A stretch of DNA of 40,399 nucleotides, from contig SVFS01000019.1 of NCBI GenBank assembly GCA_015056725.1, positions 1-40,399 of the forward strand. Reading direction: 5' to 3'. Source of the stretch: Lachnospiraceae bacterium (lineage in GTDB: Bacteria; Bacillota; Clostridia; Lachnospirales; Lachnospiraceae). Numbering within the stretch: the stretch's first letter is position 1; each line of letters opens with the position of its first letter. Of the stretch, positions 2,864 through 18,818 are shown in pieces. The position numbers and the translations under genes were made by a program. A model generated the notes under the pieces. The model was given only the letters and a program-made list of their open reading frames with translations, was not told the origin of the DNA and ran no database searches.

Positions 2864-5800
2864 ATGATGAAAATTCAAGCAATTGGAAATGTTGAAAAGA
2901 CTGGTAATGAGTATTTTGTACAAATTGATAGGAAGTTTAAGAAAGGACTTAAGTGTCTGGATTATTTTAGTCATGTGCATTTGCTATGTATAACTTCAGA
3001 ACAGAGATTTACTTTTGTTACGGGAAAGATGGAGGACCTTAATGTTCGAGATTGTGAGATAAAGGTGCATGTGAGTGGTAATGAGCGTATTTTGGAGGAT
3101 AATTGTACGCTGACGCTTGTTGATATCAAACCCTATTTGCCAAGTGAAGACAATGCAGAAACAACAGAATCAAATGGTGAAAATCGAGAGATAAGGGTTG
3201 AGAAAAATGAGGAGAATGCATTTGAACTGAATTATCAAGGAGAGATAAGAAATAACAGAGGTGTATATTATCTTCAGTATAATGATGTAGACAAGATGCC
3301 AAGGGCATTTAATGAGTATATTCATGTGCTTTGGTGGTTTGATAAATTTAATGAACCCAAATATAGAAGAGTTCTGCAATGTGAGACTCCTTACGAATCA
3401 CAGGGACACACAGGCGTATTTGCTTGCCGGGCACCGATAAGACCTAATCCAATAGCAATTACCGCAGTCAAAATAAATGGAGTAGATTACGAGAATGGCA
3501 GAGTGTATATAAATGAAATTGAGAGCTTTGATCATACTCCATTTTTAGGCGTAATTGACTATTGTGCACAAACCGATAAGGTTCAAAAGTGTGATTTACA
3601 ACTTCCCCCATGGGCTAAGGAGTGGCCGGATGAAATTATAATCAAGGATAAAGCGGCTATGGAAAAAAGTGTACAGAATGTAATTGAAGAGCTTGACGCA
3701 AATACATACATAATAGAGTTAACAAATCAAGAGGAGGAAAAAGGAAATACAGCGGAGAGGGAAGGAAAGATTATTAATAATGAGAAGCCTACACATATTG
3801 TGGTGAGAGGAGCACGTGAAAATAATTTGAAGGGTTTATCTGTTTCTATTCCATATGGAAAAATCACGGCTGTAGTAGGAGTTAGTGGGAGTGGAAAGTC
3901 CAGTCTGGTTATGGATACGGTATATGCGGAATGCCGGCGAAGGATGGAACAATTAAATGGCGAGAATCTGTCAAGGCAAAGACCGGAGATGGATAGTATG
4001 ACAGGATGCATCCCGGTGGTAATGATTTCACAAAAAGAAATCAGGACAAGTTCAAATTCTACAATAGGAACATTTTCAGGAATTAATCATCATTTGAGAT
4101 CCATTTATGCAGCCATTGGCAAACGTCATTTTATGAACAAGAATGTAATTCAATTTAAATTAACCCCGACTACCTTTAGTTTTCTGGATCCAGAGTGCAG
4201 ATGTGATGCTTGTAATGGAAAAGGTGTCCGTTTTGTTCCGGATATGAAGAAGATTATTACCAATCCTAATATAAGTCTTTTGGATGGAGCTTCTCCTTTT
4301 CTTGGGAAATTGAAGACATTTGTAGAAAATCCCAATGCCAATTGGATGAAGGGACAGGTAGTGGCTTTGGCAGAAAGCTGTGGTGTGGATCTATCAAAAC
4401 CATGGAACGAACTTCCGGAGTCTTTTCAAAATGATATTTTATATGGAGATGAAAATAAACAGATTACTTTTTCGTTTGATAATAAAAAAACTGGAAGAAA
4501 GGGTGAAATCTCAAGGAAATTGGAAGGAATCATGCCTATAATCAATAGGCTGTATATTGAGGATGACAAGGGAGGAATGGCATCCAAATTTATGTCGGAG
4601 TACTCGTGTGATGTATGTAAAGGTGAGAGACTTGCGGCGGAGGGGAGACTGGTAACTGTCTTGGGGATTCGGTTTCCTGTAGCGGCAGCCATGACTTTTT
4701 CAAGTGTCAAGCAGTTTGCATTGTATATGAAAAAAAGTCTGCCGGAGGAAGATAAGCAGTTGGTAAAGGAGCATATTGATGCTGTAATTTTACTTTGCGA
4801 TACAGCTAAGAGATTAGGAATTGAGTATTTAGAAATGAGCAGGGGTGTTTCTATGATATCAGGAGGTGAAGCAAGGAGACTCAAACTTCTGTCTGCTTTC
4901 CAGAATCATATGGCGGGAATGCTTTATATTTTCGACGAGCCATCCAAAAAATTAAGTTCAAAGGAATATAACTACATCATTGAAATGATGAGGGAGCTAA
5001 TAAAAGAGGGAAATACGGTCCTGATGGTTGAGCATAATATGGATATGATAAATATTGCCGATTATGTAATTGAAATAGGACCAAAAGCAGGAAAAAACGG
5101 AGGATATCTTATGACGGAAGGAGCTTTATCAGATGTAATTATTCATAAGAATTCTCTGTTGGGAAAATATGCAGGTAACTATAATGTCTTTAATATGAAA
5201 AAAATAAGAGAGGATTTTTCTTCATGGGTGCAGATAGAAAATGTCACAGCTAATAATCTGGTGAATTTCAGCGTAAGTTTTCCTAAGAAAGCAATGACTT
5301 GTATTACCGGTGTTAGTGGCAGCGGAAAATCTACGCTTTTGTATAAAGGGATCCTGCAACAAACGGAAAAAAGCAGTGATTTTGACTCAGTTATTTTAGT
5401 GGAATCGAGAATATCCGGAGGAACATCAAGGTCAGTGGTTGCAACGTATGTAGGAATTATGGACGATATTCGAACTTTATTCGCGGCAACAGAGGATGCA
5501 GTTGAATTAGGTTATTCCGATAAAGATTTCAGTTTTAATACAGGACGGCTCAAGTGTGAACACTGTAGTGGTGATGGAAGGGTTAAAATTCCATTTACAG
5601 AAGATTCCTATGGGGTGTGTCCTGTATGTCAGGGGAAAAGGTATACAAAAGCTATTAATAATGTTCTGTTTCAAAATAGAACGATAGCGGAAGTGTTAGA
5701 GATGTCTGCCTATGAGGCGAAGGATTTTTTCGGCGAATACTGTCCTTCAATAGCTGAGAAATGCTCATTTCTGATTCGAGTTGGGTTGTCTTATATTTTA

Positions 5801-6058
5801 CTTGGTCAGAGTACGAGCATGCTATCCGGAGGTGAAGCGGCGAGACTTAAGATTGCCTCATGTCTTATGAAGGCGAATATGAAGAATTCATTATTTTTGC
5901 TGGATGAGCCAACGTGTGGCCTACATTTTTCAGATGTTGATAATTTGATCTTGCTTTTGGAGGAAATAATTGACTTAGGGAATACGGTAGTTGTGATTGA
6001 ACATAATAAGAGATTTTTGTCAGCAGCAGACTATACAATAACGTTAGAAAAGAAATAG
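2864..6058 (+). CDS. TrmO-like domains fused to UvrA-like tandem ABC ATPase
   Basis: Protein of 1064 aa with an unusual architecture. Residues about 3-95 resemble a decayed TsaA/TrmO domain (ending TLVDIKPYLPSED). Residues about 120-245 are a fuller TrmO-like domain with the RxPIRPNPI signature at 190-197 and the FDHTPFLGVIDY strand. From about 308 on it is a UvrA-like twin ABC ATPase: Walker A GVSGSGKSS at 339, zinc-module Cys pairs (CDACNGKG, CDVCKGER), SGGEARRLK near 666, a degenerate Walker B/D-loop FDEPSKKL, second Walker A near 816, CEHC...CPVC zinc module, SGGEAARLK near 988 and LLDEPTCGLH. It is about 100 aa longer than ordinary UvrA. UvrA paralogues such as DrrC protect against DNA-binding drugs, so a resistance role is plausible given the MerR promoter, but no substrate is evident. 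RBS GAGGAGAG precedes ATG 2864. Confidence 0.85.
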   Translation: MMKIQAIGNVEKTGNEYFVQIDRKFKKGLKCLDYFSHVHLLCITSEQRFTFVTGKMEDLNVRDCEIKVHVSGNERILEDNCTLTLVDIKPYLPSEDNAETTESNGENREIRVEKNEENAFELNYQGEIRNNRGVYYLQYNDVDKMPRAFNEYIHVLWWFDKFNEPKYRRVLQCETPYESQGHTGVFACRAPIRPNPIAITAVKINGVDYENGRVYINEIESFDHTPFLGVIDYCAQTDKVQKCDLQLPPWAKEWPDEIIIKDKAAMEKSVQNVIEELDANTYIIELTNQEEEKGNTAEREGKIINNEKPTHIVVRGARENNLKGLSVSIPYGKITAVVGVSGSGKSSLVMDTVYAECRRRMEQLNGENLSRQRPEMDSMTGCIPVVMISQKEIRTSSNSTIGTFSGINHHLRSIYAAIGKRHFMNKNVIQFKLTPTTFSFLDPECRCDACNGKGVRFVPDMKKIITNPNISLLDGASPFLGKLKTFVENPNANWMKGQVVALAESCGVDLSKPWNELPESFQNDILYGDENKQITFSFDNKKTGRKGEISRKLEGIMPIINRLYIEDDKGGMASKFMSEYSCDVCKGERLAAEGRLVTVLGIRFPVAAAMTFSSVKQFALYMKKSLPEEDKQLVKEHIDAVILLCDTAKRLGIEYLEMSRGVSMISGGEARRLKLLSAFQNHMAGMLYIFDEPSKKLSSKEYNYIIEMMRELIKEGNTVLMVEHNMDMINIADYVIEIGPKAGKNGGYLMTEGALSDVIIHKNSLLGKYAGNYNVFNMKKIREDFSSWVQIENVTANNLVNFSVSFPKKAMTCITGVSGSGKSTLLYKGILQQTEKSSDFDSVILVESRISGGTSRSVVATYVGIMDDIRTLFAATEDAVELGYSDKDFSFNTGRLKCEHCSGDGRVKIPFTEDSYGVCPVCQGKRYTKAINNVLFQNRTIAEVLEMSAYEAKDFFGEYCPSIAEKCSFLIRVGLSYILLGQSTSMLSGGEAARLKIASCLMKANMKNSLFLLDEPTCGLHFSDVDNLILLLEEIIDLGNTVVVIEHNKRFLSAADYTITLEKK

Positions 6059-6450: not shown

Positions 6451-7167
6451 ATGGATTTTGATTATTTTTATGGCAGAGGGGCAGATTAATTTGCTTTTGA
6501 TCAAATACCCAAGATTTTGATTACGGATGAGAAATTTGCGGGAATAACGATGGAATCAAAAATTCTCTACTCCTTAATGCTGGACAGAGCATCTCTTTCA
6601 GCAAAAAATGGATGGCTTGATGAAGATGGCAAAGTGTTCATTTATTACAAATTGGATCGGATTATGGCAGATATGCACTGTGCTAATCAGAAAGCTACGA
6701 AAATGCTTAAAGAGCTGGAAGCAAAAGCCGGTTTGATAGAAAGACAAAAACAAGGTCAAGGTAAGCCAACAAAAATCTATGTAAAGGACTTTGCTACCGG
6801 ATTGCATGACAATGGACCTGACAGAAGAATAGTTCTGGACTCATGGAAATCATGCACTAATAATACTAATAATAACAATACAGATTTTATTAATACCAAT
6901 CTAATCAATCTATCGGTGGAATCAGCATTTCCGAAGACAAAGGTGGTAAAGGCACAGAAAAAGGAAGATTCGATAAGATTACGAGAACAATATGAGGATT
7001 ATCGTAGAGAAAAATTGGCCATAGATATTATGGTTCAGAGAAATCCAATGGAAGCAGGAAGAATTAATGAGATTTTAGAGCTGATGTTAGATGTTCTATG
7101 CAGTACAGCCAAAACAATCCGAATAGATTCCTTGTTATCTGTGGCAATAAGCAGAATGAAGATGTAA
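6451..7167 (+). pseudogene. repA: Replication initiator RepA (RepA_N family), nonsense-disrupted
   Basis: The conserved N-terminus MDFDYFYGRGAD is broken by TAA at 6487-6489 (codon 13), after which the same frame continues FAFDQIPKILITDEKF, then KILYSLMLDRASLSAKNGWL and FIYYKLDRIMADMHCANQKA, a clear RepA_N winged-helix domain found on ICEs and plasmids of Clostridia. The C-terminal domain is recognisable to LELMLDVLCSTAKTIRI, then ends early at 7165-7167; intact relatives carry a further stretch of some tens of residues. A good ribosome binding site (AAGGAGG, 6436-6442) sits in front of ATG 6451. A restart downstream of the stop is possible but would lack the start of the DNA-binding domain. 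Inferred consequence: the element can no longer replicate autonomously. Confidence 0.85.
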
Positions 7168-7269
7168 AGGATGATATTGCTATTGCAAGAAAAGCAAAGG
7201 TAATTGTGACGACTTTGGATGGTGTAATTGGCTTGTGACTAAAGGGAAACGGAAGGGAGGCGATAGATT

Positions 7270-7404
7270 GTGGTTAATGAGGAACTATCAGACAAATCTA
7301 TTCATTTTGTCGTTGACTATATGTTTAAACCAGCTGCCAGAGACATTGTGAAAGCACTAGAAAAATATCAGCAACATAGACGTGATAAAAAGTACTTTAT
7401 CTGA
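7270..7404 (+). CDS. Small ORF, possible truncated mobile-element protein
   Basis: A 44-residue frame starts with GTG 7270 behind GGGAGG (7254-7259) and reads VVNEELSDKSIHFVVDYMF... to a lysine/arginine-rich end (RRDKKYFI) and TGA at 7402. The opening (NEE.S.K...FVV) is faintly like the start of PcfB-type small proteins of Firmicutes conjugative elements, which are usually much longer. This resemblance is weak and by eye only. It lies between the repA remnant and the recombinase remnant and is probably a leftover rather than a working gene. Confidence 0.3.
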   Translation: MVNEELSDKSIHFVVDYMFKPAARDIVKALEKYQQHRRDKKYFI

Positions 7405-7525
7405 TGTGGGTTCCCTTCTTTTTTTATTTCTGAAGAAATAATCCATAGATGATTTCAGCGATTCGTAAGAATTGCGTAGCCAGGCGATTAGCCTGTTCAA
7501 GGGGATTGGGGATGTGCCCTCAACG

Positions 7526-7564
7526 AGCGAAAAGTAGCTTTTTGTACAAGAAAGCACTGCTCGC
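7526..7564. repeat. Imperfect inverted repeat, possible oriT or regulatory hairpin
   Basis: The segment GAGCGAAAAGTAGCTTT - loop - AAAGCACTGCTCGC folds with a bulge into a stem of roughly 12 pairs. It lies in about 225 gene-free bases (7405-7629) beside mobility-gene debris and just upstream of the recombinase. Hairpins of this kind occur at transfer origins of clostridial elements, but no relaxase gene remains in the island, so this is only a suggestion. Confidence 0.3.
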
Positions 7565-7626
7565 GAATTTGTGAATTTCGATTATTTATTAAAAGCAATA
7601 AAGCTAAAAGAAAGAGAGGAAAATAG

Positions 7627-8246
<620 letters not shown>

Positions 8247-8354
8247 CGCTGGCTCAAAAACAGGAAGGTGTACTTTTTTGTAAAGATAGTTTCTTCTATA
8301 AAATGGAGTTATTTTTGGGTGTAAAGTTGAAAAACTTGTAATACGCATGGCTCC

Positions 8355-8383
8355 TTGAAAATACACGGGAAAAATGATATAAT
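8355..8383 (+). promoter_or_regulatory. Sigma-70-type promoter of the FkbH/ACP/MBOAT operon
   Basis: TTGAAA (8355-8360), a 17-bp spacer and TATAAT (8378-8383) form a near-consensus housekeeping promoter about 90 bp upstream of the proposed fkbH-like start. The stretch from 8247 to 8473 holds no gene. No clear operator is visible, so the operon is probably expressed constitutively or controlled from elsewhere. Confidence 0.7.
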
Positions 8384-8473
8384 TAAAAAAGTTTTGTAGT
8401 GACTGTAAAAAACAGGAAAGTACACATTTTCGCTATTTCTGAAGTGTTTTTTTTAGATATTGGAGGGGATGTT

Positions 8474-10267
8474 TTGAAAGAGCTTGAATACCCATTTGAT
8501 GCAGAGTCGGTTTTAAAAAGAAAGAAGACATTAAAGAAGCAACTATTGTCCGATGATTCTATGAGTTTTATTGGCAAGAAAATTGCAATCCTGGGCGGAG
8601 AGACAACTCAGAACATTAAGATAATGCTTGAGTTGTTTCTCCTTAATTATGGAATTAAACCGGAGTTCTATGAATCTGAATATAACCAATTCTATGAGGA
8701 TGGAATGTTCCCAAATCCAGAATTGGAAGAATTTGCTCCGGATCTTATTTATGTATGTACGTGTATAAGAAACATTGTAGATTTTCCTGATATTTCAGAT
8801 AACAGGGATGTAGTTGAGACTAAAAAGAAGAATGTTGTAAATAAGTTTTATGGATTATGGGACGCTTTGGCTTCAAAGTATCATTGTCCAATCATTCAAA
8901 ATAATTTTGAGTATCCATTCTTTAGACTAATGGGTAATAAGGATGCAAGTGATTATCACGGCAGAGTTAATTTTGTCACAAGGATTAATTGTGATTTCTA
9001 TGAATATGCCCAGAATCATGAAAATTTCTATATCTGTGATGTGAATTATATAGCGGCTTCTTATGGACTCGAAAAATGGTCGGATCCATATTACTGGCAT
9101 ATGTACAAGTATGCTGTGGCTGTTCCTGCAATTCCATATCTGTCTTTTAATGTTGCCAATATCATAAAGTCTGTATATGGAAAAAATAAAAAGGCTTTCA
9201 ATCTGGATTTGGATAATACCATGTGGGGAGGAATTGTTGGAGATGATGGTCCGGAAAATATTGAAATAGGTCAGGAAACTTCTCTTGCTCAAACATACAG
9301 TGAATTTCAAGATTATATAAAACTGCACAAACAACTGGGCGTTCTTTTGACGGTTAATTCTAAGAATGATGAAGCAAATGCTGTGGCTGGATTTGAAAGA
9401 CCAGATAGCGTTCTAAGAAGAGATGACTTTATAAGTTTTAAAGCTAATTGGAATCCAAAGAGTTTGAACCTGTCTGAGACAGCAAGTGAATTAACACTGC
9501 TTCCTGAGAGTTTTGTGTTTGTGGATGATAATCCTGCAGAGCGCGCAATTGTAGAAGATCAATTAAAAGGAGTTGCAGTACCACAGATAGAGGGTGTTGA
9601 ACACTATATTCAAACTATAGATAAATCAGGTTTTTTTGAGATTACCACCTTATCGGGTGATGATCTTAAGAGAAATGAAATGTATCAGGAAAATGCAAAA
9701 CGTCAACAACTTCAGGCATCGTTTTCCAATTATGAGGATTATCTAAAGTCATTGGAAATGAAGGGCGAAATTAAGAGTTTTGTTCCTATGTATATGTCTC
9801 GTATAGCACAGCTGACGAACAAGAGTAATCAGTTTAACCTCACAACAAAAAGATACAGTCAAAGTGAGATTGAAGAGGTTGCGGAGGATCCTAGTCGTAT
9901 TACGTTATATGGAAAACTTGGAGACAAATTTGGCGATAATGGCGTCGTTAGTATCGTAATTGGTAGGATAGATGGAGCAAATAACGATGAGCTCCATATG
10001 GAATTATGGTTAATGAGTTGCAGGGTTTTGAAGCGAGATATGGAGTTTGCCATGATGGATGAACTTGTTGAAAAAGCCAAGTCTTGTGGAATAAGAAAGA
10101 TTGTTGGCTATTATTATCCAACCGCAAAAAACGCTATGGTCAAGGATTTCTATGACCTTCAGGGATTTATCAAAATATCTGAAGAAGAAGATGGAAATAC
10201 TGTATGGGAGTTCTATGTTGATGATTCGTATGAAAAGAAACAACATGTAATTGAGGTAAATAGATAA
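8474..10267 (+). CDS. FkbH-like HAD superfamily protein (glyceryl-ACP type)
   Basis: First gene of the biosynthetic operon, 597 aa from TTG 8474, chosen because GGAGGGG (8462-8468) precedes it and the protein then begins LKELEYPFD like other FkbH proteins; the frame is also open further upstream. Residues about 35-230 are the SGNH-like N-terminal domain (KIAILGGETTQNIKIMLELF). The HADIIIC phosphatase domain has LDLDNTMWGG with D245 and D247, TVNSKN and FVDDNPAER. The C-terminal GNAT-like domain contains the conserved MSCRVL with C516. Characterised FkbH proteins dephosphorylate 1,3-bisphosphoglycerate and load D-glyceryl onto an ACP through such a cysteine. An ACP gene lies in the same operon. 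The glyceryl substrate is inferred, not proven. Confidence 0.88.
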   Translation: MKELEYPFDAESVLKRKKTLKKQLLSDDSMSFIGKKIAILGGETTQNIKIMLELFLLNYGIKPEFYESEYNQFYEDGMFPNPELEEFAPDLIYVCTCIRNIVDFPDISDNRDVVETKKKNVVNKFYGLWDALASKYHCPIIQNNFEYPFFRLMGNKDASDYHGRVNFVTRINCDFYEYAQNHENFYICDVNYIAASYGLEKWSDPYYWHMYKYAVAVPAIPYLSFNVANIIKSVYGKNKKAFNLDLDNTMWGGIVGDDGPENIEIGQETSLAQTYSEFQDYIKLHKQLGVLLTVNSKNDEANAVAGFERPDSVLRRDDFISFKANWNPKSLNLSETASELTLLPESFVFVDDNPAERAIVEDQLKGVAVPQIEGVEHYIQTIDKSGFFEITTLSGDDLKRNEMYQENAKRQQLQASFSNYEDYLKSLEMKGEIKSFVPMYMSRIAQLTNKSNQFNLTTKRYSQSEIEEVAEDPSRITLYGKLGDKFGDNGVVSIVIGRIDGANNDELHMELWLMSCRVLKRDMEFAMMDELVEKAKSCGIRKIVGYYYPTAKNAMVKDFYDLQGFIKISEEEDGNTVWEFYVDDSYEKKQHVIEVNR

Positions 10268-10272
10268 TTAAG

Positions 10273-11118
10273 ATGGAGCATTTTTTACTAAGAAATGAAA
10301 TGACGATTCCTGCAATTGGAATTGGAACTTGGCAGATAACTGACAGGGATATTATGTCAAATGTTGTAAGTGATGCATATGACATCGGATATCGCTTGAT
10401 TGATACAGCAGCGGCTTATAGCAATGAAATTGCAATTTCCAAGGCAATTGCTTCCAAAGGTATAAGTAGAAATGAAATTCTTTTATCCGACAAAGTTTGG
10501 AATACAAGCCGAGGGTATGAAGCTGTTCAGGATGCATGTAAAAAATCACTTAAAAAACTGAAAACAGAATATTTTGATTTCTACCTTATTCACTGGCCTG
10601 CGTCCATGAAATTGTATCCTGACTGGAAGGATATAAATGCAGAAACTTGGAGAGGAATGGAACGGCTATACCAAGATGGTTATGTAAAGGCCATTGGAGT
10701 ATGTAATTTCAGAGAACATCACCTAAGGGAGCTTCAAAAAACTGCTACTATAATGCCGTTTATAAACCAATTTGAGATGCATCCTGGTATGTCTCAAAAG
10801 GCTTTGATTGAATACTGCAAAGAACTTGGGATTGTTGTAGAGGCTAGTAGTCCATTAGGAAATGGGCAGATTTTGAAAAATAAATCCATACTTGCTATTG
10901 CTAGAAAGAAAAACAAGACCTCAGCGCAGATTTGCTTGCGCTGGGCATTGCAGCAAGAGATTGTTGTAATACCTAAAACAGTTAATGCAAATAGGCTCAG
11001 ACAAAATATTGATGTATTTGATTTTGAATTAACTGATGATGAAATGAAAAGCATTGATGATATTCCGTATTGTGGCGGAATTGGCATTGATCCAGATGAG
11101 GTGACACAGTTTGGCTAA
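10273..11118 (+). CDS. Aldo/keto reductase
   Basis: NADPH-dependent carbonyl reductase of the AKR family, 281 aa, which is normal length. The catalytic tetrad is visible as D44 (RLIDTAAAY), Y49, K74 (LSDKVW) and H107 (FYLIHWP). The GIGTW start and the cofactor-site segment VVIPKTVNANRLRQNI are typical. It follows the FkbH-like gene by 5 bp and its end overlaps the next gene by 8 bp, so translational coupling is likely. In this operon it probably reduces a ketone or aldehyde, either in the ACP-bound chain produced with the transketolase pair or in a soluble precursor. Substrate unknown. Confidence 0.92.
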   Translation: MEHFLLRNEMTIPAIGIGTWQITDRDIMSNVVSDAYDIGYRLIDTAAAYSNEIAISKAIASKGISRNEILLSDKVWNTSRGYEAVQDACKKSLKKLKTEYFDFYLIHWPASMKLYPDWKDINAETWRGMERLYQDGYVKAIGVCNFREHHLRELQKTATIMPFINQFEMHPGMSQKALIEYCKELGIVVEASSPLGNGQILKNKSILAIARKKNKTSAQICLRWALQQEIVVIPKTVNANRLRQNIDVFDFELTDDEMKSIDDIPYCGGIGIDPDEVTQFG

Positions 11119-11944
11119 TACAAAAAAAGAGGAGCAGGAGCTTCTTGAATTAAGAAAAAGAATATTTATTACTGGATTTAAGGGAGGCATGGCACATCTC
11201 GCATCTTGTTATTCATGTTTAGAGATGTTGTATGTTTTTTATGTCAAAAGACTCTTAAGGTTTGATCCGCAGAATCCTAAATGGGAAAACAGGGATAGAT
11301 TTATTCTTAGTAAAGGCCATGCCGGTCTTGCGTTATACGGCGTAATGGAAAAAGTCGGTCTTATATCATCTGAACAATACGAATCATATCTGACCAGTGT
11401 TTCGCAAATAGGTGGTGAACCTTGTATGAGGGACTCTGAGTGGATAGAAGCTACAACGGGGTCTCTTGGACATGGATTATCAATGGGACTTGGTATGGCG
11501 ATGGCTTTGAAACAGAACAAAAGCAATTCAAGAGTATACGTAATGTTGGGAGATGGTGAATTGCAGGAAGGAGTTGTTTGGGAAGCAATTATGACAGCGC
11601 CATCTTTTGGTGTTGATAATCTGATAGCTATTTTGGATTGTAATAGAATACAAAAAATGGATTTTGTATGCAAGACAATTGGAGAACCAAAATGGCGAGA
11701 TAAGTTTATCAGTTTTGGATGGGATGTCATTGAAACAGAAGGCCATGATATCGAAGAATTTTCAAAAAGCATATCATGTGAAAACACATCAGGAAAGCCA
11801 CGTTTAATAATTGCTAATACTATTAAAGGAAAAGGCGTATCTATAATGGAAAACAATCCTAACTGGCATTTTAAGCTTCCTGGAAGAAAAGAACTTAAGG
11901 TGTTTAAGGAGGAGTTGGGAATAACAGATGCAGAATTGGAGTAA
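11111..11944 (+). CDS. Transketolase N-terminal (pyrimidine/PP domain) subunit
   Basis: 277 aa, thiamine-diphosphate pyrophosphate-binding half of a split transketolase. Start TTG 11111 overlaps the reductase end; the alternative is a later in-frame codon, but the protein beginning ANTKKEEQELLELRKRI matches family starts. Key motifs: LSKGHAGLALYG, TGSLGHGLSMGLGMA, and the ThDP/metal motif GDGELQEGVVWEA (G147-D148-G149) with the closing asparagine in DCNRI (N178). Must pair with the next gene to be active. Split transketolases are known in both central metabolism and natural-product clusters, where they move a two-carbon ketol unit. Its place between a reductase and an ACP/dehydratase pair argues for a pathway-specific role. 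Confidence 0.93.
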   Translation: MANTKKEEQELLELRKRIFITGFKGGMAHLASCYSCLEMLYVFYVKRLLRFDPQNPKWENRDRFILSKGHAGLALYGVMEKVGLISSEQYESYLTSVSQIGGEPCMRDSEWIEATTGSLGHGLSMGLGMAMALKQNKSNSRVYVMLGDGELQEGVVWEAIMTAPSFGVDNLIAILDCNRIQKMDFVCKTIGEPKWRDKFISFGWDVIETEGHDIEEFSKSISCENTSGKPRLIIANTIKGKGVSIMENNPNWHFKLPGRKELKVFKEELGITDAELE

Positions 11945-11947
11945 CTT

Positions 11948-12871
11948 ATGAATAGTGCATATGTAGGAAAACTCATGGAACTTGCCGAGAAAGATCATGA
12001 TGTAGTACATCTGCTTGCAGATAGTGGTACAGGTTATGATGAGATGTTCCGAAAGAATTTTCCAGATCAAATTTATAACTTTGGTATTGCTGAAGAAAAC
12101 ATGGTAGCTGCAGCTGCAGGTATGGCTACAGTTGGCAAAAAGCCTTTCGTATTTACTGCAGGAGCTTTTTTGGCATATAGGTCACTTGAATTTATCAGAG
12201 ATGATGTATGCTTTCAGAATCTCAATGTAAAAATAGTCGGTATGGGTAGTGGGTTGTCATGGAGTTCTCTTGGACCAACCCATCATACGACTGAGGACTT
12301 AGCAATGCTTAGAGTAATACCTAATCTTATGATATTATCGCCGGCGACACCCAAGCAGGTGGCTGAGTGTGTTCAAGTGGCATATGAGCATGAAGGTCCG
12401 GTCTACATAAGGATTGGTATGAATCATGAACGTGAGTTTTTTGATGACAGATATGCTTTGGATATCGCTAAAAACGATGTAATTAGAGACGGACAAGATG
12501 TATTAGTTTATTCAACAGGAAGTATCCTGGATGAAGTGGATAAGGCGTGTGAATTGCTGGTTCAGGATGGAATAATTCCCAAATTAGTAAACGTTACTTG
12601 TATAAAGCCTTTTAATAAGGATGAACTGTTAAATGATATAGAGTCTTTTGGCAGTATTATTAGTGTTGAAGAACATAATATCAATGGCGGATTAGGAAGC
12701 ATACTATGTGAAACTGCAGTTTATAATGGCAGGAACGTCAAGGTTATCCCTGTTGGTGTTGAAGATAAGTTTGCTGAAGGGTATGGCACTCAGCTAATTG
12801 TAAGAAAGAACAATAAGTTGGATGCAGAAAGCATATATAGACGCATCAAGGAGGCTATCCACGATGAATGA
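11948..12871 (+). CDS. Transketolase C-terminal (pyrimidine-binding) subunit
   Basis: 307 aa, second half of the split transketolase, starting 3 bp after its partner. It contains the catalytic glutamate that activates the thiamine ring (NFGIAEENMVAAAAGMA, E49), the phosphate/substrate loop GLGPTHHTTEDLAMLR, SPATPKQV, and a C-terminal transketolase domain with VNVTCIKPFNKDELL and EEHNINGGLGS. Length and domains fit DXS/TktC-type subunits. Known chemistry is transfer of a glycolaldehyde-like C2 unit from a ketose phosphate to an acceptor. The acceptor here might be glyceryl-ACP or a free aldose; the sequence does not decide. Its stop overlaps the start of the MaoC-like gene by 8 bp. Confidence 0.93.
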   Translation: MNSAYVGKLMELAEKDHDVVHLLADSGTGYDEMFRKNFPDQIYNFGIAEENMVAAAAGMATVGKKPFVFTAGAFLAYRSLEFIRDDVCFQNLNVKIVGMGSGLSWSSLGPTHHTTEDLAMLRVIPNLMILSPATPKQVAECVQVAYEHEGPVYIRIGMNHEREFFDDRYALDIAKNDVIRDGQDVLVYSTGSILDEVDKACELLVQDGIIPKLVNVTCIKPFNKDELLNDIESFGSIISVEEHNINGGLGSILCETAVYNGRNVKVIPVGVEDKFAEGYGTQLIVRKNNKLDAESIYRRIKEAIHDE

Positions 12872-13292
12872 ATATACAATTGCAGAGATTGAAGTTGGAA
12901 TGGAGGCTTCATTTAGCAAGCAAATAACAAAAGAGATGGAAGATTCTTTTAGAATCATTACAGGAGATGAAAATCCTCTTCATAAAGATGATGAGTTTGC
13001 AAGAGAAATCGGTGGGGATAAATTTACCAGACATGCGGCATTTGGAATGCTTACTGCATCACTTTACTCTACAATGGCAGGAATGTATCTTCCTGGGAAG
13101 TATAGCCTGATACATAGTTTTGAAGAAATATCATTTACAAAACCTGTCTTTGTAGGTGACGAACTTACTATCGCAGGGGAAGTAATTGATAAGATAGAGG
13201 ATTTAAGGCTTATAGTGCTAAAGGTTACCATTCGTAATCAGAATAATAAGGTTGTTTCCAGAGCGAGAATGAAGGTTCTGGTAATGAAATAA
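12864..13292 (+). CDS. MaoC-like (R)-specific hydratase/dehydratase
   Basis: 142 aa hot-dog fold protein. ATG 12864 is chosen over the upstream in-frame ATG 12822 because AAGGAGG (12847-12853) is correctly spaced and the preceding gene extends to 12871. The hydratase motif is present as GDENPLHKDDEFA, giving the catalytic pair D35 and H40, followed by R..AFGMLTASLYSTM and the FTKPVFVGDELTIAGEV strands. MaoC-like enzymes hydrate or dehydrate (R)-3-hydroxyacyl thioesters on CoA or ACP. With a reductase and ACP in the operon it most likely acts on the ACP-bound intermediate, but no ketosynthase is present to create a normal fatty 3-ketoacyl substrate. Confidence 0.88.
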   Translation: MNEYTIAEIEVGMEASFSKQITKEMEDSFRIITGDENPLHKDDEFAREIGGDKFTRHAAFGMLTASLYSTMAGMYLPGKYSLIHSFEEISFTKPVFVGDELTIAGEVIDKIEDLRLIVLKVTIRNQNNKVVSRARMKVLVMK

Positions 13293-13316
13293 ATATGTCA
13301 AAAGGAGATAAGAATT

Positions 13317-13559
13317 ATGACAAGAGAAGAAGTATATGAAAGATTAAATAAGGTGTTTAGAGAGATTCTTGATGATGACACAATAGAGCTTTATGATGAA
13401 ACTGTTGCAGATGATATAGATGGTTGGGATTCTTTTGAACATATCAATCTTGTTGTAGGAGTAGAGGAAGAATTTGGTTTTAAGATTCCTATGGGCAAAG
13501 TTGTTACAATGAAGAATGTAGGCGAGATGGTAGATATTATTTTGGAGCTTGGAAAATAA
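13317..13559 (+). CDS. Acyl carrier protein
   Basis: 80 aa, highly acidic, four-helix ACP. The phosphopantetheine attachment motif is GWDSFEHINLV with Ser39. Aggagat at 13303-13309 precedes ATG 13317. The DxWDSfxHxxLv signature and the short helix IPMGKVVTMKNV are closer to carrier proteins that pair with FkbH or DltC-like systems than to the fatty acid AcpP (GADSLDTVEL). It ends exactly where the MBOAT gene starts, so the two are almost certainly co-translated, as for dltB/dltC. No phosphopantetheinyl transferase is present in the window, so a host enzyme must activate it. Confidence 0.92.
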   Translation: MTREEVYERLNKVFREILDDDTIELYDETVADDIDGWDSFEHINLVVGVEEEFGFKIPMGKVVTMKNVGEMVDIILELGK

Positions 13560-15095
13560 ATGTCGATAACATCTTTCTCATTTTTGGTATTGATAACTGT
13601 CGGAACGCTTGTTTATTATATTATTCCTAAAAAGATTCAGTGGATAGAACTACTGGCATTAAGCTTAGTTTTTTACTCATTTTCAGTAGCACCGTATACT
13701 TTTATATATATTGCTTTAGCAACGGCTATTGCATATATATCAACTATGCTTATAAAAAAAGGAAAAAAAGCAGGTCTGATATTTTGTACAGCCATGATAA
13801 GCCTACTGTTAATATGGTTTGTGATTAAGGGCTATGGTTTGTGGTATCCAGTATGTATAAGAGTTATTCCATTAATTAGCACATCTTTGATGAATAAAAT
13901 AGATTCCTTTCAGATAGTAGCTGCAATGGGAATGGGATATTATACATTGCAGATATTAGGGTATATCATAGAGTGCTATTGGGGGAATATCCAACCGCAG
14001 CAAAACCCATTTAAACTATTACTGTTTGTGGCATATTTCCCACAGCTAACTACAGGTCCAATAAGTAGATATGCTGACTTGAAAACAATGTATGATGGTC
14101 GTGCATTTAATTACGACAATATATGTATGGGAGCACAGCGAATTCTATGGGGATTCTTCAAGAAATTAGTTATTGCTGAAAGAGTCGGAATTATTGTTTC
14201 TTCAATAAATGCAGATCCTGGTACATATCATGCATTTTATTCATGGATAGCGCTTTTGTTGTATCCTCTACAAATGTATACTGACTTCTCCGGTTGCATG
14301 GATATCGTAATTGGAGTATCGGAATTATTTGGAATTAGACTTGCCGAAAATTTTAATAATCCGTTTTTTGCAAGATCTTCTCAAGAATTCTGGCAGAGAT
14401 GGCATATAACTTTAGGAACATGGGCAAAAGATTATGTGTTATATCCGCTCCTAAAATCAAAACCAATGATTTCATTTGGTAAATTCACAAGAAATAAGCT
14501 CGGCAGAAAGAAAGGCGCATTTGTAAAGAACCTTATCGGGATGTTTGTTCTTTGGATGGTTATGGGTATATGGCATGGAGGATACAAATATATTGTAGGA
14601 GTAAGCTTGTGGTATTGGATAATTCTTATGCTGGGAAATTTAACTGCAAGCACTTTTGAAAAGATAACTAATATATTTGAGGTGAAGACAACCAGCTTTG
14701 GGTGGCACCTATTTCAGTCAATAAGAACTTATATTATTTATGCAGTAGGAGCTGCTTTCTTCGTATGTGGAACATCTGGCGGTATATATCTTATTGGAGA
14801 TTGCATAAAGGTATTCTACGAGGAAAAATATGCTAATCCTTGGATTTTTTTCGATGGAAGTATTTTGGAACTTGGCGTAGGATATCGTGATATTAATATT
14901 ATATTGATAGGTGTGCTTATTCTCTTTATTGTAGGCATATTAAGAGAAAAATATGGATATGCCAGATTATGGATAAAGAACCAATCGTTTGTATTCAGGT
15001 GGGCTATTTGGTTATTTCTACTGATGATGGTAGTGATTTATGGAAATTACGGCCCTGATTTTAATGCTGCAGATTTTATATATATGGGGTTCTAA
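13560..15095 (+). CDS. MBOAT family O-acyltransferase (AlgI/DltB-like)
   Basis: 511 aa integral membrane protein with many hydrophobic segments over its whole length. MBOAT hallmarks: YFPQLTTGPISRYADL, QMYTDFSGCMDIVIGVSELFGI, SSQEFWQRWHITLGTWAKDYV and the catalytic-histidine segment MVMGIWHGG (H339). Family members (AlgI, DltB, PatA) take an acyl group from a cytoplasmic carrier and pass it through the membrane to an extracellular polymer or SGNH partner. The start codon directly abuts the ACP stop codon. Given an ACP and an SGNH-type partner as immediate neighbours, this is predicted to be the export step for the ACP-bound group. Confidence 0.93.
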   Translation: MSITSFSFLVLITVGTLVYYIIPKKIQWIELLALSLVFYSFSVAPYTFIYIALATAIAYISTMLIKKGKKAGLIFCTAMISLLLIWFVIKGYGLWYPVCIRVIPLISTSLMNKIDSFQIVAAMGMGYYTLQILGYIIECYWGNIQPQQNPFKLLLFVAYFPQLTTGPISRYADLKTMYDGRAFNYDNICMGAQRILWGFFKKLVIAERVGIIVSSINADPGTYHAFYSWIALLLYPLQMYTDFSGCMDIVIGVSELFGIRLAENFNNPFFARSSQEFWQRWHITLGTWAKDYVLYPLLKSKPMISFGKFTRNKLGRKKGAFVKNLIGMFVLWMVMGIWHGGYKYIVGVSLWYWIILMLGNLTASTFEKITNIFEVKTTSFGWHLFQSIRTYIIYAVGAAFFVCGTSGGIYLIGDCIKVFYEEKYANPWIFFDGSILELGVGYRDINIILIGVLILFIVGILREKYGYARLWIKNQSFVFRWAIWLFLLMMVVIYGNYGPDFNAADFIYMGF

Positions 15096-15100
15096 AAATA

Positions 15101-16648
15101 ATGAATGTAAAGAGAATGGAAAAGATCAAAAGAATAGTAGGAGCAGTTCTATTTATAGGAATTGCCATAAGTGCTCTTTTGGGAGCAACATATCTATTTC
15201 GCGGGCATGTTTTTGGCTACAATGACAGGATATCCGTTGTGGGCATAAAAGAGGAAAAGAAAGATTCGCTAGATGTTATTTATATAGGTGGAAGTGCTGC
15301 TTTTGTATATTGGGAGCCTATGAAAGCGTATAAAGATTGTGGCTTTACTTCATATGATTTGGCAACAAACAGTATTCAGGCGGAGAGTATTCTTGCTTAC
15401 ATCAAATATGCTCAAGAGTATCAGAATCCAGATTTATATGTAATAGGTGTAAGGGCTTTTCAATATTATAGTGAGGAAGGTAGTGAAAGCGGATTAAGAT
15501 TGACTTCTGACTCTTTGGATATGGGGATAAATAAATTCAATCTTATACATGAATATTTACAGAATCATACTACTGAGATTGATGAGTTATCACTGTATCT
15601 TGATTTGGTAAAGTATCACACTAATTATGATGCGTTATCAAATGAAACTGCTTGGCATCTGATTGATAACAAAGAGGAATGCGATTACAAAGGTAACTTG
15701 ATTCAATCAGCATGGTGTTATTTAGAGGAACCACAAGATTTTAGGAATGACAACAGAGCAACACTTCTTGAAAATGACGAAAAAGTACTAAATGAATTGC
15801 TAGATTATCTTGATGATAATAACATTAATGCCCTCTTTGTAGTATGTCCATATTCAATAACAAACGAAGATTATTCGAAGTATAACACTATTGGAGATAT
15901 GGTCACCTCACATGGATACAATTTCTTAAATGCCAATGATTATTATTATGAGATGGGGGTTGACTTTTCTACAGACTTTTATAATGTTGCTCATATGAAT
16001 GGGGTGGGGGCAGAGAAGTATACAGATTTCTTAGAAAGATATATTTCTGATAATTACGACTTACCAGATCATAGAGGTGATATGGAATATGCTGATTGGG
16101 ATGAGAAGGCAACTCAATTCGTAGATCAGTCTGAAGCATGTAAGGAACATGTATACAAATTGATTTCGGCTGCAGATGAAGGTGTTAATTTGGGTGAAAG
16201 CATCAGAGCAACAGATGATTTTTTTGCGTGGAGCTCATATGTAAAAGATTATAGGTATAGCTTGTTTATTGTAGGCAATGGTGAGGCATTAGTTACAGAT
16301 TCAGCTATTGATAAAAAGTACTTGGAGTATCTGGGGATTGATTTATATGAATTGTTTGGAACAAATAGTTATATAAAGTTCATTTCTGATGAAATGCACA
16401 CTTCAAATATTACAATTCCCGATGTTGTAGATAATAGCCTAACCGTTCAAGCTGGACAAATTATGGGCAAAAGCAGTGTTACAATCGATGACAAAGATAA
16501 TGCTTGCTCAATAATAGTAGAAGGAACAGAGTATAGTCGCAAGGATAGTGATGGAATAAATATCGTTGTTTTTGATAATTATTATAGAACAGTTATTGAT
16601 AGTGTAACTTTGAAAAAGATTGGAGAAAACATCAGTATAGTAAGGTGA
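15101..16648 (+). CDS. Membrane-anchored SGNH/AlgX-like MBOAT partner with ILEI-like C-terminal domain
   Basis: 515 aa. Residues about 12-34 form one signal-anchor helix, so the rest is extracellular. Residues about 55-325 are an SGNH/DltD-AlgJ-like domain: nucleophile motif YIGGSAAFVYW (S65), an LFVVCPYS strand and the His block NVAHMNGVGAEKYTDFL (H298, with Asn295 where many SGNH enzymes have Asp). Residues about 415-515 resemble ILEI/FAM3-type carbohydrate-binding domains (IIVEGTEYS, GINIVVFDNYYRTVIDSV). The MBOAT-plus-SGNH pairing is the known arrangement for alginate acetylation and teichoic acid D-alanylation, where the SGNH protein performs or assists the final transfer to the acceptor. 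I infer the same role, with the C-terminal domain perhaps holding the glycan. Confidence 0.8.
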   Translation: MNVKRMEKIKRIVGAVLFIGIAISALLGATYLFRGHVFGYNDRISVVGIKEEKKDSLDVIYIGGSAAFVYWEPMKAYKDCGFTSYDLATNSIQAESILAYIKYAQEYQNPDLYVIGVRAFQYYSEEGSESGLRLTSDSLDMGINKFNLIHEYLQNHTTEIDELSLYLDLVKYHTNYDALSNETAWHLIDNKEECDYKGNLIQSAWCYLEEPQDFRNDNRATLLENDEKVLNELLDYLDDNNINALFVVCPYSITNEDYSKYNTIGDMVTSHGYNFLNANDYYYEMGVDFSTDFYNVAHMNGVGAEKYTDFLERYISDNYDLPDHRGDMEYADWDEKATQFVDQSEACKEHVYKLISAADEGVNLGESIRATDDFFAWSSYVKDYRYSLFIVGNGEALVTDSAIDKKYLEYLGIDLYELFGTNSYIKFISDEMHTSNITIPDVVDNSLTVQAGQIMGKSSVTIDDKDNACSIIVEGTEYSRKDSDGINIVVFDNYYRTVIDSVTLKKIGENISIVR

Positions 16649-16661
16649 CCGGAGGGATTAA

Positions 16662-17345
16662 TTGATTTTAATTTTGCCTTGCGCTGGTGGAAGCGCGTCA
16701 AATTTTAACAAATACAAAAAATATTCTAATGATTTTTACATTTATGAGTATTCCGGGCATTGGTCAAGATACGAAGAGCAATTAGAGACTTCGATAGAGC
16801 AGAGTGTCAGGTCGCTAAAAAAAGATATCATTAACTCAAATGTTAAAGAAATTACCTTATTTGGGCATAGCATGGGTGGTTTGATTGCATGGAATCTGGC
16901 GAATGAGGTACTTAAGGAAGGCGTAAATGTGAAGCAACTGTATATTGCTGCGTGCTGCCCTCTAGAAGTAAAGCCAGATTTTTTAGAAAGTATTTGTGAC
17001 GATTTGGATATAAAAGTGTTGTTGCATAATATCAGACAGGTTCAAGATAAGGTATTAAAAAGTGCTTTTTTTAACGAGGATTTGCTTCCTATAATTAAAA
17101 ACGATTTTTCTATGGTAAAGCGTTTTATAAATGAGTATAATCCTGAAGACAATACACCATTATCTGTACCGATAACATGTTTATATGGAGAGGATGATCC
17201 AGTAATAAAGCCTGTAGAAATGGAACTATGGAGAAAATATACGAGCGCTGAATTCAGGTGTATTTCGTTTCCTGGAAACCACTTTTTCTTGTATGAAAAG
17301 GATAATGTAAAAGGAATAGCTGATATTCTTTTGGGAAATAAATAA
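16662..17345 (+). CDS. Type II thioesterase (alpha/beta hydrolase)
   Basis: 227 aa, GrsT/RifR-like thioesterase. Start TTG 16662 follows GGAGGG (16651-16656). Opening LILPCAGGSASNF and nucleophile elbow LFGHSMGG (S70) are typical; the acid is in LYGEDDP (D178 or D179) and the histidine in PGNHFFLYE (H207). Such enzymes clear wrong or stalled acyl groups from carrier-protein phosphopantetheine arms. It is the last gene of the operon, 13 bp after the SGNH gene, and supports the view that ACP-bound chemistry is the core of this cluster. It could instead release the product. Confidence 0.92.
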   Translation: MILILPCAGGSASNFNKYKKYSNDFYIYEYSGHWSRYEEQLETSIEQSVRSLKKDIINSNVKEITLFGHSMGGLIAWNLANEVLKEGVNVKQLYIAACCPLEVKPDFLESICDDLDIKVLLHNIRQVQDKVLKSAFFNEDLLPIIKNDFSMVKRFINEYNPEDNTPLSVPITCLYGEDDPVIKPVEMELWRKYTSAEFRCISFPGNHFFLYEKDNVKGIADILLGNK

Positions 17346-17450
17346 CATAATTGTTTAAGAATACTGATAAGCTAAGCTCCGAACTTCAAGCGGGAATTTC
17401 ACTGAAAAGGATATGGATGTTACGAGGACGGAGAAGAATATATAAATTAT

Positions 17451-17864
17451 GTGACTGAGGCGAAGCTGTTGAAGCTTTGCTTTAGTTTTTTTTTCTCCAA
17501 ATTTCATTTGATAGGTTATGGTGCAACAGGCGAAAGTACTGTCCTTCTGCCGTATATTATGTCAGGGTGTGATGGTACGATGTGTATTTCACAAGTAAAT
17601 GATCATTATAAAGCGGTGAAAAAAATGATTCAACTCATGTTCGCTAATAATACTGACATTATTAACACGGTGTCTCTGACACCTTGTATACCTCAAGCAA
17701 AATATACGATCCTAAATAATTATGATAAGGCTTATACTTTTGCACCGGTATTTAAGGTTATGCTACCAAACGTGGATTTATTTCCGAATTCCCAGAAAAC
17801 TGCTGATAACATACGATGGTGGTCGGACATTAGGAATGACGGACAAAGATGTTTTTATGCTTAA
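17451..17864 (+). CDS. Unrecognised ORF, probably degenerate
   Basis: Frame of 137 codons with no convincing start: the first codon has no ribosome binding site and the opening is a T-rich stretch. The best part, GYGATGESTVLLPYIMSGC then DGTMCISQVNDHYKAVKKM, has a faint feel of dihydrodipicolinate-synthase-like barrels, but I could not convince myself. It runs out of frame into the HsdM-like remnant at 17836. Its position in a stretch of broken genes suggests it is the damaged end or middle of a larger gene. Confidence 0.3.
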   Translation: MTEAKLLKLCFSFFFSKFHLIGYGATGESTVLLPYIMSGCDGTMCISQVNDHYKAVKKMIQLMFANNTDIINTVSLTPCIPQAKYTILNNYDKAYTFAPVFKVMLPNVDLFPNSQKTADNIRWWSDIRNDGQRCFYA

Positions 17865-18177
17865 TCTTGCTAGTAAAGCGTCTAAGGACTTTTTGACCTC
17901 GGAATCCAAGTATGAGTACTGCGATTTTAATGAAATAGATGAAGTGGCAAATATATTTAAGAATCGCAAATCCATAGATGGTATTTCGGATACGGTTTCA
18001 GCAGAAACAATATTTGAACGCGGATTGTGTTTTAATCCGAGCGCATTTATTAGAGATGAAGTTTTAGGAAATACGAGAAACTATAAGGAATTACTATCTG
18101 AACAGAAGCAGCTGGAGAAAGAATTTAAGGAGATAGATTTGGCCTATAAAGATGCAATAAAAAACTTTGTAGAATAG
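17836..18177 (+). pseudogene. HsdM-like type I restriction methylase, C-terminal remnant
   Basis: The frame DVFMLNLASKASKDFL...EIDEVANIFKNRKSIDGISDTVSAETIF...LCFNPSAFI aligns by eye with the end of type I methylase subunits, which read (F/L)FIDAS..F, then I..I.. TYRNRK..DKYS..VS.EEI and NLNIPRYV. It is followed by a helical tail (LLSEQKQLEKEFKEIDLAY) in the place where HsdM has its coiled-coil subunit contact. The methylase catalytic domain (NPPF motif) is missing and no specificity or restriction subunit is nearby. Remnant only. Confidence 0.55.
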
Positions 18178-18818
18178 CATTTAGCTTTACTCCGAATGAG
18201 TATATCTCTATTCATAAAAAATTGTTTACAGGAATTTATGGAAGCGCTTCGGAACTTAGAGCAACGCTTGTTTATGATTTTTCAGAGGAAAAGAAGTTTA
18301 GTTATAAGAATTTGAGCATGGAAGAGATTATTCATCACTTAGCTATCTTTGTATCGAGATTATGGCAGATACATGCATTCGGGGAAGGGAATGCACTGGT
18401 TAGAGCTAACTATAACGATTTGAAAAACGGTGTTCATGAAACAACGGAGTATTTGGAATTATTTTTAAGAAATTTATTGCTGGATGAAAAGAATGAGCTT
18501 CATAATCGTTCTATGCATATCAGTGGAATGGTTGAAGAAACGGACATTAAAATTTCAAAAGCGAACATTGAGAACCTAGAAGCGGACATTCGAAACAGAA
18601 TACTTTCTTTTTCTGACATGATTTCAGAAAAAACAATAAATCATGCTTTAGAAATATTTTTAAAGTGTGGAAAAAATGAGTACTTTGGTAGAACGATTGT
18701 AGAAGATATTACCGGGTTAAAATCAACAAGAGCATCTGAGCTGATAAAATTGTTGCTTGATAGTAAGGTAATTGTACCTGTAAACGGACATGGAAAAGGA
18801 AAATATCGGTTTCAATAA
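18174..18818 (+). pseudogene. Fic/DOC family protein with internal deletion
   Basis: Fic AMP-transferase family features: FSFTPNEYISIHKKLFTGIY, YKNLSMEEIIHHLAIFVSRLWQIHAFGEGN (the HxFxxGN active-site start). Directly after EGN, at about 18392, the sequence jumps to ALVRANYNDLKNG, which in intact homologues lies some 30 residues further on, so the TRT/R part of the catalytic loop and the next helix are missing. The frame is otherwise kept, and the C-terminal winged-helix domain is present to KGKYRFQ. No start codon matches the domain beginning; the frame fuses to the HsdM remnant in a different register. An inactive gene left by an in-frame deletion. Confidence 0.8.

Follow-up and report, generated by a model that had tools for sequence, protein, structure and literature searches.

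What can a bacterium produce with an operon that unites an FkbH-like protein, a split transketolase, an acyl carrier protein (ACP) and a DltB/DltD-like export pair? The question is raised by nine consecutive genes on contig SVFS01000019.1 of a Lachnospiraceae bacterium, which was analysed at its full length of 40,399 nucleotides (henceforth the window; it is the whole of contig C40 in a 2.57-Mb genome that is 85.6% complete). In order, the genes encode FkbH, an aldo-keto reductase (AKR), the transketolase subunits TktN and TktC, a MaoC-like dehydratase, the ACP, a membrane-bound O-acyltransferase (MBOAT), an SGNH protein and a thioesterase (Table 1). Our comparative analysis documents that FkbH, the split transketolase, MaoC, ACP and MBOAT recur as one unit, and this architecture is well supported. 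We see about an even chance that they form a self-contained, carrier-fed cassette for surface acylation, which has moved between genomes and in which an altered enzyme dependent on thiamine pyrophosphate (TPP) probably extends an ACP-bound C3 unit. The interpretation given in an earlier note on this DNA is partly supported.

Recurrence of the gene set

All nine open reading frames (ORFs) lie on the + strand (8474-17345), and the intergenic gaps of -8 to +24 bp reported in the earlier note were confirmed from the ORF coordinates. Counted from the ORF ends they amount to 5 bp (FkbH/AKR), -8 bp (AKR/TktN), 3 bp (TktN/TktC), -8 bp (TktC/MaoC), 24 bp (MaoC/ACP), 0 bp (ACP/MBOAT), 5 bp (MBOAT/SGNH) and 13 bp (SGNH/thioesterase), with the MaoC start set at 12864 following 142-aa homologues (the ORF list gives 12822). 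Pfam and NCBIfam searches support FkbH_N and FkbH (269 bits), AKR, Transketolase_N, Transket_pyr with Transketolase_C, MaoC, PP-binding, MBOAT and thioesterase domains and assign the eighth gene to no family. Neither a ketosynthase nor an AMP-ligase domain was detected by them among the nine operon proteins, in agreement with the initial statement that a ketosynthase and an adenylation enzyme are missing.

The search for TktN in 397 genomes of the family (E<=1e-60) retrieved four genomes including the window's own. One of the other three (G363, locus L114) contains the cassette and two (G016, G364) a sister type; this threshold did not retrieve locus L032 of G163, where the contig ends within TktN. 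A scan of one genome per species, covering 84,980 species and seeded by short exact query peptides with a resulting bias towards close relatives, yielded 38 loci. Both searches together provide 17 other cassette loci, defined by a TktN identity of at least 48%. FkbH is present in the cluster of 16 of these loci (exception L084), TktC in all 17, MaoC and ACP in 16 (L083 lies on a contig that ends before them) and MBOAT in 15 (exceptions L083 and L084), whereas FkbH, MaoC, ACP and MBOAT are absent from the fetched stretch in all 24 control loci with a more distant TktN. This control comprises 22 loci of the species scan with a TktN identity of at most 45% plus L115 and L116, and some of its stretches are short. 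Three gene orders occur among the cassettes, namely that of the window, TktN-TktC-FkbH-ACP-MaoC-MBOAT-SGNH (L088, L089, L091) and FkbH-ACP-MaoC-MBOAT-SGNH-AKR-TktN-TktC (L090).

The recurrence in 17 other loci is indicative of more than a chance arrangement. A single pathway had been proposed earlier, with unrelated partners at homologous loci as the outcome that would speak against it; the gene-neighbourhood counts given above favour a unit. In several genomes (e.g. L082, L086, L089) the cassette is flanked by unrelated genes, housekeeping ones as judged by eye, thereby suggesting that it moves as a block.

An altered transketolase pair

The residues of TPP chemistry are retained in the alignments of both TktN (His29, His70, His253) and TktC (Glu49, His112), and we take them to be catalytic. 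The positions of substrate recognition are altered, and in the window TktC exhibits Asn2, Thr28, Gly100, Leu108 and Met158. Position 103 of TktN is Glu in all 18 cassettes versus His in 21 of 21 other transketolases, and 29 further transketolases of the class have His (28) or Asn (1) but never Glu. TktC 158 is Met in 18/18 cassettes versus Arg in 17/18 others. The cassettes furthermore carry Asn or Gln at TktC 2 (Arg in all 16 others with a letter at this place), Thr at 28 (Ser in 14 and Ala in 4 of 18 others), Gly at 100 (His in 11/18) and Leu at 108 (Asp in 11/18); the set of others was compiled without L032, L111, L112, L092, L115 and L116, and for TktC also without L093.

Alignment to human transketolase equates TktC 28, 100, 108 and 158 with Ser345, His416, Asp424 and Arg474, which presumably correspond to Ser386, His469, Asp477 and Arg528 of the yeast enzyme, and TktC 2 falls at the place of Arg318 (yeast Arg359), two residues ahead of the aligned part. 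We assume that His103 is a phosphate-recognition position, a role derived in part from a title cited in PMC3352088. Passages of that paper describe phosphate recognition by the equivalent residues Arg378, Arg552 and His491 (PMC3352088). Compared with transketolases proper (EC 2.2.1.1), the TPP-catalytic residues are thus present and those for sugar phosphates (yeast Arg359, His469, Arg528; also His103) absent, which suggests that the cassette enzyme acts on another substrate. The constant company of ACP and MaoC makes an ACP-bound acyl group the obvious candidate, and the loss of the phosphate and His103 contacts would allow a 2-oxo acid or an unphosphorylated ketol as donor. The earlier note drew the carbon from central sugar phosphates; in view of the missing residues, it is doubtful that the enzyme uses a phosphorylated ketose directly in the usual manner. 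An ordinary transketolase role was rejected on residues and gene linkage, both read from the sequence.

As judged from the alignments, the combination of Glu103, Met158 and Asn/Gln2 is diagnostic, and no single position of 100, 108 or 158 alone. The second split transketolase of the genome, on contig C55, has canonical residues. A class-wide search with a TktN profile matched 305 of 391 genomes (E<=1e-60), with a drop in score from 519 bits for the window to 303 bits next in rank; the 29 other loci fetched from its higher-ranked matches all lack Glu103. Among these class transketolases, L138, L140 and L156 (and L141-L143, L147, L150) lack both His and Asp at TktC 100/108 and keep Arg158; they possibly represent further groups of altered specificity.

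One transketolase clade in several FkbH lineages

In the transketolase tree, the cassette TktN and TktC form one clade (17 of 37 rows) with a support of 100, and its nearest rows are L115 and L116. In the FkbH tree (56 rows), the label for loci with the transketolase (TKT) requires five changes, at least four of them forced by well-supported branches, versus 14.8 in shuffles. The separate TKT placements are a main group of 10 rows, L085 with L086, L087, L090, and L088/L089/L091. One transketolase clade is hence joined to several FkbH lineages (4-5 places), which argues for functional coupling. Both trees were built quickly, with SH-aLRT as the sole measure of support. The transketolase tree omits L032, L083, L092, L093, L098, L111 and L112 by hand as well as L108 and L110, where both subunits are not present together; the FkbH tree is without L079 and L084, and L032 is scored as TKT despite its truncated TktN.

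The sister pairs of L115 (9824-11562) and L116 (9414-11164) are located in clusters for surface glycans, among whose genes NeuB/NeuC-like, radical-SAM and GmhA/RfaE-like members were recognized by eye. In both pairs His103 and Arg2 are retained and TktC 158 is Thr.

Predicted enzymes of carrier loading and tailoring

FkbH has a TTG start, with GGAGGGG at 8462-8468. The motif DLDNTxWGG is found in 54 of the 56 rows (exceptions: L046 and the truncated L114), all 56 contain SCRV, and we regard the HAD motif DxDxT and the Cys region as the functional FkbH motifs. HAD motif, Cys region and a discrete ACP partner, the hallmarks of FkbH glyceryl transferases, are all present, so the initial FkbH-like assignment holds. 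The PP-binding match of the ACP (21.5 bits) is just above the cut-off of 20.8. The ACP is the slowest-changing part of the cassette: its identity to the window amounts to 78-92% in the other 12 cassettes that contain an ACP and follow the window order, and to 38-68% in 36 TKT-less FkbH loci.

The best PDB match of MaoC is 1iq6, an (R)-specific enoyl-CoA hydratase. Its TGDENPLH is of the GDxNPLH type, which we take to be the catalytic motif of R-specific hydratases (MaoC/PhaJ). All judgeable TKT loci encode MaoC (17/17 with the window). It also occurs without TKT, in 10 of 39 TKT-less FkbH loci, six of these with an adjacent short-chain dehydrogenase/reductase (SDR), which fits an action of MaoC ahead of the TPP enzyme. 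A small VOC protein, perhaps an epimerase of the ACP-bound acyl group, is encoded beside FkbH-ACP in the TKT-less loci L035, L036, L042, L050, L053 and L054 (Glyoxalase_4 in L036).

The AKR, counted earlier as part of the set, is less constant. A related AKR (45-71% identity) is encoded in 10 of the 17 other cassette loci; elsewhere an SDR takes its place or no reductase was seen. L088, L089 and L091 have no related AKR and an SDR after the SGNH gene (family-tested in L088, with those of L089 and L091 as its BLAST relatives), and the AKR of L084 is of a different type (24% identity).

The putative export pair and its acceptor

The MBOAT has the DltB fold, both conserved histidines and a C-terminal FxYxxF, and, counting the window, 15 of 18 cassette loci include an MBOAT with this motif (the others are L083 and L086, where contigs end, and L084). 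FxYxxF is described as an acyl-shuttle motif in passages of PMC12148441. For the eighth gene, family searches gave no match at E<=0.001 and, at E<=1, a single match of chance level; its predicted structure is an SGNH fold with DltD 3bma as the first Foldseek match (E 1.4e-3). Ser65 and His298 are invariant in nine aligned rows; alignments were built from hand-chosen locus rows, one of them without L090, while in others most rows end one residue early, and the C-termini were read from the complete proteins. The SGNH part of the earlier SGNH/ILEI-like designation is thus retained, and the ILEI label is unsupported, because no Pfam match was obtained at E<=1. The beta-rich C-terminal part has a low confidence in the model, which leaves such a domain conceivable on structural grounds. 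A DltB/DltD-like pair is supported by fold for both proteins, but the MBOAT with its own shuttle motif is not a plain DltB.

The thioesterase, previously included in the set, has no relative in the 40 FkbH-fetched and 42 TktN-fetched loci and was rejected as a core part. The cassette contains no glycosyltransferase, and neither a glycosyltransferase nor a sugar-nucleotide gene was recognized by eye beside it in the window or L082. In the genome itself (85.6% complete), the best match to DltA reaches 60.6 bits (cut-off 559.85). PF00884 (LtaS-type) has no match in this incomplete genome, and lipoteichoic acid made by LtaS was rejected as acceptor on this ground.

Acyltransferase-3-like membrane proteins were recognized by eye 5-9 kb downstream of the operon (two, window 22534-23628 and 25405-26592 (-)) and inside or beside the cassette in L077 (9058-10029) and L032 (2208-3266). 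Directly downstream of the FkbH/TKT cassette, L085 (14071-18663) encodes an AMP-binding ligase, a carrier, an MBOAT with FMYAQF and a weakly GDSL-like protein.

Proposed route

Here we infer the substrates, the order of the steps, the C2 donor and the acceptor. The most economical route would lead from glyceryl-ACP via pyruvoyl-ACP, C2 addition and reduction to export and esterification. By family, FkbH is expected to move glyceryl from 1,3-bisphosphoglycerate onto the ACP, and MaoC would dehydrate glyceryl-ACP to enol-pyruvoyl/pyruvoyl-ACP. TktN/TktC would then add a two-carbon acyl anion to the C3 unit on the ACP, at its ketone, yielding a branched C5 hydroxy-oxo-acyl-ACP by acetolactate-like chemistry, and the AKR, or an SDR elsewhere, may reduce the new ketone. 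Fold, motif and Dlt/Pat precedent suggest that the MBOAT accepts the acyl group from the ACP and hands it, bound to the tyrosine of its FxYxxF motif, across the membrane to the SGNH partner; the latter would esterify a surface polymer or glycan whose synthesis is encoded elsewhere in the genome. A dehydratase and a reductase convert glyceryl into lactyl in bryostatin loading. Further precedents, taken from passages of the respective papers, are the conversion of D-1,3-bisphosphoglycerate into glyceryl-S-ACP for loading (PMC3625739), the attack of the split transketolase Rif15 on the ketone of a non-sugar (PMC6002545), and transketolase-like subunits that work with an ACP (PMC6335953). That a chain is extended on its carrier without ketosynthase or malonyl units and exported as a branched acid to decorate the surface of a gut bacterium is a tentative proposal, whose probability we place somewhat below one half.

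Several observations weigh against this route. The high ACP identity and the transketolase linkage could partly result from transfer as one block, and the ACP is only 49-61% identical in the four loci of other gene order (L088-L091). L084 consists of TktN-TktC-MaoC-ACP with neither FkbH nor MBOAT nearby, and the complete locus L082 has no AKR match and no SDR recognized by eye. In L050, which was fetched for FkbH, a canonical split transketolase lies about 2 kb from FkbH with an opposite-strand MBOAT between them, showing that an ordinary transketolase can also sit near FkbH; the canonical pair of L043 is farther away, and both loci (37% identity, His103 present) were counted as TKT-less. Among 24 other class transketolases, Gly100 and Leu108 occur together in three, eight lack both His100 and Asp108, and two have Leu158.

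Alternative explanations

Glyceryl-ACP could instead be oxidized at C3 first, giving an aldehyde of the tartronate-semialdehyde type to which the ketol is added before MaoC dehydrates a linear C5 chain. MaoC would then receive the usual 3-hydroxyacyl thioester expected from its motif, and aldose acceptors are normal for transketolases according to passages of PMC3352088. However, this order, which we consider unlikely, requires a dehydrogenase, and no related AKR is present in L082, L083, L086, L088, L089 and L091 (L083 and L086 being truncated by the ends of their contigs); the TKT-less cassettes with MaoC and SDR moreover suggest that MaoC works on the C3 unit itself. It is quite unlikely that the TPP enzyme generates a C2 acyl-ACP of its own (glycolyl or acetyl) or supplies FkbH with an altered precursor, since MaoC and the near-constant presence of FkbH would be left without a role. 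The model for such a function is QncN/QncL/QncM, and by homology SclQ1-4, which, in the available passages of PMC6335953, transfer the C2 unit of a ketose to an ACP, where it forms glycolicacyl, but the Qnc system has a lipoyl/acyltransferase part and none is found among the nine operon proteins.

The FkbH-ACP-MBOAT-SGNH proteins may also form plain glyceryl (or lactyl) esters, with TktN/TktC in a separate linked task such as the synthesis of an acceptor sugar. TKT-less FkbH loci are indeed commoner, with an ACP in the fetched stretch of 36 of the 39 and an MBOAT in that of 24, and the location of the sister pairs L115 and L116 in surface-glycan clusters points in the same direction. The probability of this scenario is nevertheless low, given the lack of recognizable sugar genes beside the cassette in the window and L082, the MaoC in every judgeable TKT locus and the much higher ACP identity in window-order TKT loci than in TKT-less ones. 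A secreted small molecule, released by the thioesterase of the window in place of a surface ester, would agree with the common association of FkbH, ACP and thioesterase families with natural-product clusters. The absence of the thioesterase from all other loci examined and the regular presence of an MBOAT with FxYxxF (15/18) make it highly improbable.

Genomic context

The promoter-like site at 8355-8383 matches 11 of 12 consensus positions, is the best of 50 such sites in 7200-18300 (11.1 kb) and is located 90 bp upstream of the FkbH start codon. The near-consensus promoter of the earlier note is accordingly found as a match, but the number of sites is not above chance (45.4 in shuffles, sd 8.0). 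A terminator-like stem begins 107 bp past the last stop codon of the operon.

The RepA_N remnant and the serine resolvase on the left and the possible Fic-like remnants on the right suggest that the operon is an inserted island. PF02661 scores 20.6 bits (cut-off 24) within 18222-18815, and 17451-17861 is without any match. The G+C content is 35.5% in the operon versus 38.4-38.6% in the flanks; base composition was rejected as a sign of foreign origin, the difference being too small alone. The comparison with empty sites in the genus yielded no insertion site, because the left-flank protein finds only distant relatives with 34-38% identity (nine genomes including its own). In both the window and L046, FkbH is directly preceded by a serine resolvase, and the similarity of the two resolvases is a hint at cassette mobility. 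Positions 2864-6058 of the window encode a protein of 1064 aa with a TrmO_N domain and UvrA-like ABC parts, whose matches in the same genus are 34-38% identical.

Table 1. Features of the operon and its borders (positions in the window).
Feature	Position	Strand	Basis or remark
RepA_N + DUF6017-like replication-protein remnant, left border	6517..7167	+	RepA_N above cut-off, DUF6017 just below
Serine resolvase, N-terminal domain, left border	7630..8085	+	PF00239
Sigma-70-like promoter, TTGAAA-17-TATAAT, TG ahead of second hexamer	8355..8383	+	Consensus match only
FkbH, predicted glyceryl transferase onto ACP	8474..10267	+	PF21211, TIGR01686; DLDNTMWGG and SCRVLKR motifs
AKR, proposed reducer of extended acyl-ACP	10273..11118	+	PF00248, 173 bits
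TktN, TPP-binding subunit, divergent transketolase-family enzyme, Glu103 for His	11111..11944	+	PF00456; residues; closest solved structure 6yak
TktC, pyrimidine-binding subunit	11948..12871	+	PF02779, PF02780; alignment to 6yaj and human transketolase
MaoC-like (R)-specific dehydratase/hydratase	12864..13292	+	PF01575; TGDENPLH motif
ACP	13317..13559	+	PF00550
MBOAT, DltB fold, His282, His339, C-terminal FIYMGF acyl-shuttle motif	13560..15095	+	
Membrane-anchored SGNH protein, DltD-like, extra C-terminal beta-rich region	15101..16648	+	Model, fold search, invariant residues
Type II thioesterase-like alpha/beta hydrolase	16662..17345	+	PF00975
Possible broken Fic-like gene remnants, right border	17451..18818	+	Weak PF02661
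Terminator-like stem-loop + T run	17453..17487	+	3 such sites observed vs 5.2 expected in shuffles

Comparison with known systems

The favoured surface-acylation cassette shares with the Dlt system (DltA, DltB, DltC, DltX, DltD) an MBOAT of the DltB fold with both histidines, an SGNH partner resembling DltD and, presumably, a carrier-protein thioester as donor (Dlt mechanism in passages of PMC12148441). It differs by FkbH and tailoring enzymes in place of the adenylating DltA, which is absent among the nine proteins, and by an FxYxxF shuttle fused to the MBOAT, whereas Dlt has a separate DltX; the operon with its gaps of at most 24 bp has no room for a DltX, which was searched for within the operon only. 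In PatA/PatB and AlgI-type systems, too, the MBOAT carries a C-terminal FxYxxF and the SGNH protein is separate, but as far as the source passages describe them they use acyl-CoA and no carrier protein, whereas the ACP gene of the cassette abuts the MBOAT gene.

The tetronate pairs (Tmn16, AbyA2/AbyA3) likewise combine an FkbH homologue with a discrete ACP and form glyceryl-S-ACP from D-1,3-bisphosphoglycerate (passages of PMC3625739), but the cassette operon lacks ketosynthase and polyketide synthase, and its product is proposed to go to the MBOAT. QncN/QncL/QncM and SclQ1-4 resemble the cassette by split TPP/transketolase-type subunits partnered with an ACP (PMC6335953, in part); the cassette is without their lipoyl/acyltransferase part, and the gene partners of its transketolase pair are FkbH, MaoC and MBOAT and not a non-ribosomal peptide synthetase. 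Rif15 of rifamycin biosynthesis is a two-subunit transketolase with a ketone and not a sugar as acceptor, but according to passages of PMC6002545 its donors are phosphorylated ketoses (and dihydroxyacetone) and its acceptor is a free small molecule. In the cassette enzyme the residues for phosphate recognition are missing, and its genes are accompanied by one for an ACP; the residues of Rif15 itself are outside our comparison. The closest solved structure to both subunits by sequence is the Carboxydothermus split transketolase (6yaj/6yak), which has the His, Asp and Arg that are absent from the cassette enzymes.

Significance

No description of a pathway with FkbH, transketolase, ACP and MBOAT was found among the matches listed in the literature searched, and nothing on FkbH in Lachnospiraceae; subscription journals were thinly covered, making these weak negatives. 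We regard the cassette as a modified form of carrier-based surface acylation, with a probably new chain-extension step. Its modular exchange represents a testable kit that ranges from plain FkbH-ACP via the addition of VOC or of MaoC/SDR to the addition of TKT, MaoC and AKR or SDR, and six of the cassette proteins are soluble (FkbH, ACP, MaoC, TktN, TktC, AKR). If the proposed route is true, it joins FkbH loading from glycolysis, TPP-dependent formation of a C-C bond on an ACP and carrier-fed MBOAT-SGNH export, three elements not described together in the literature searched. It would thereby add a route for the elongation of carrier-bound acyl groups and predict a hitherto unknown ester on the surface of a gut commensal.

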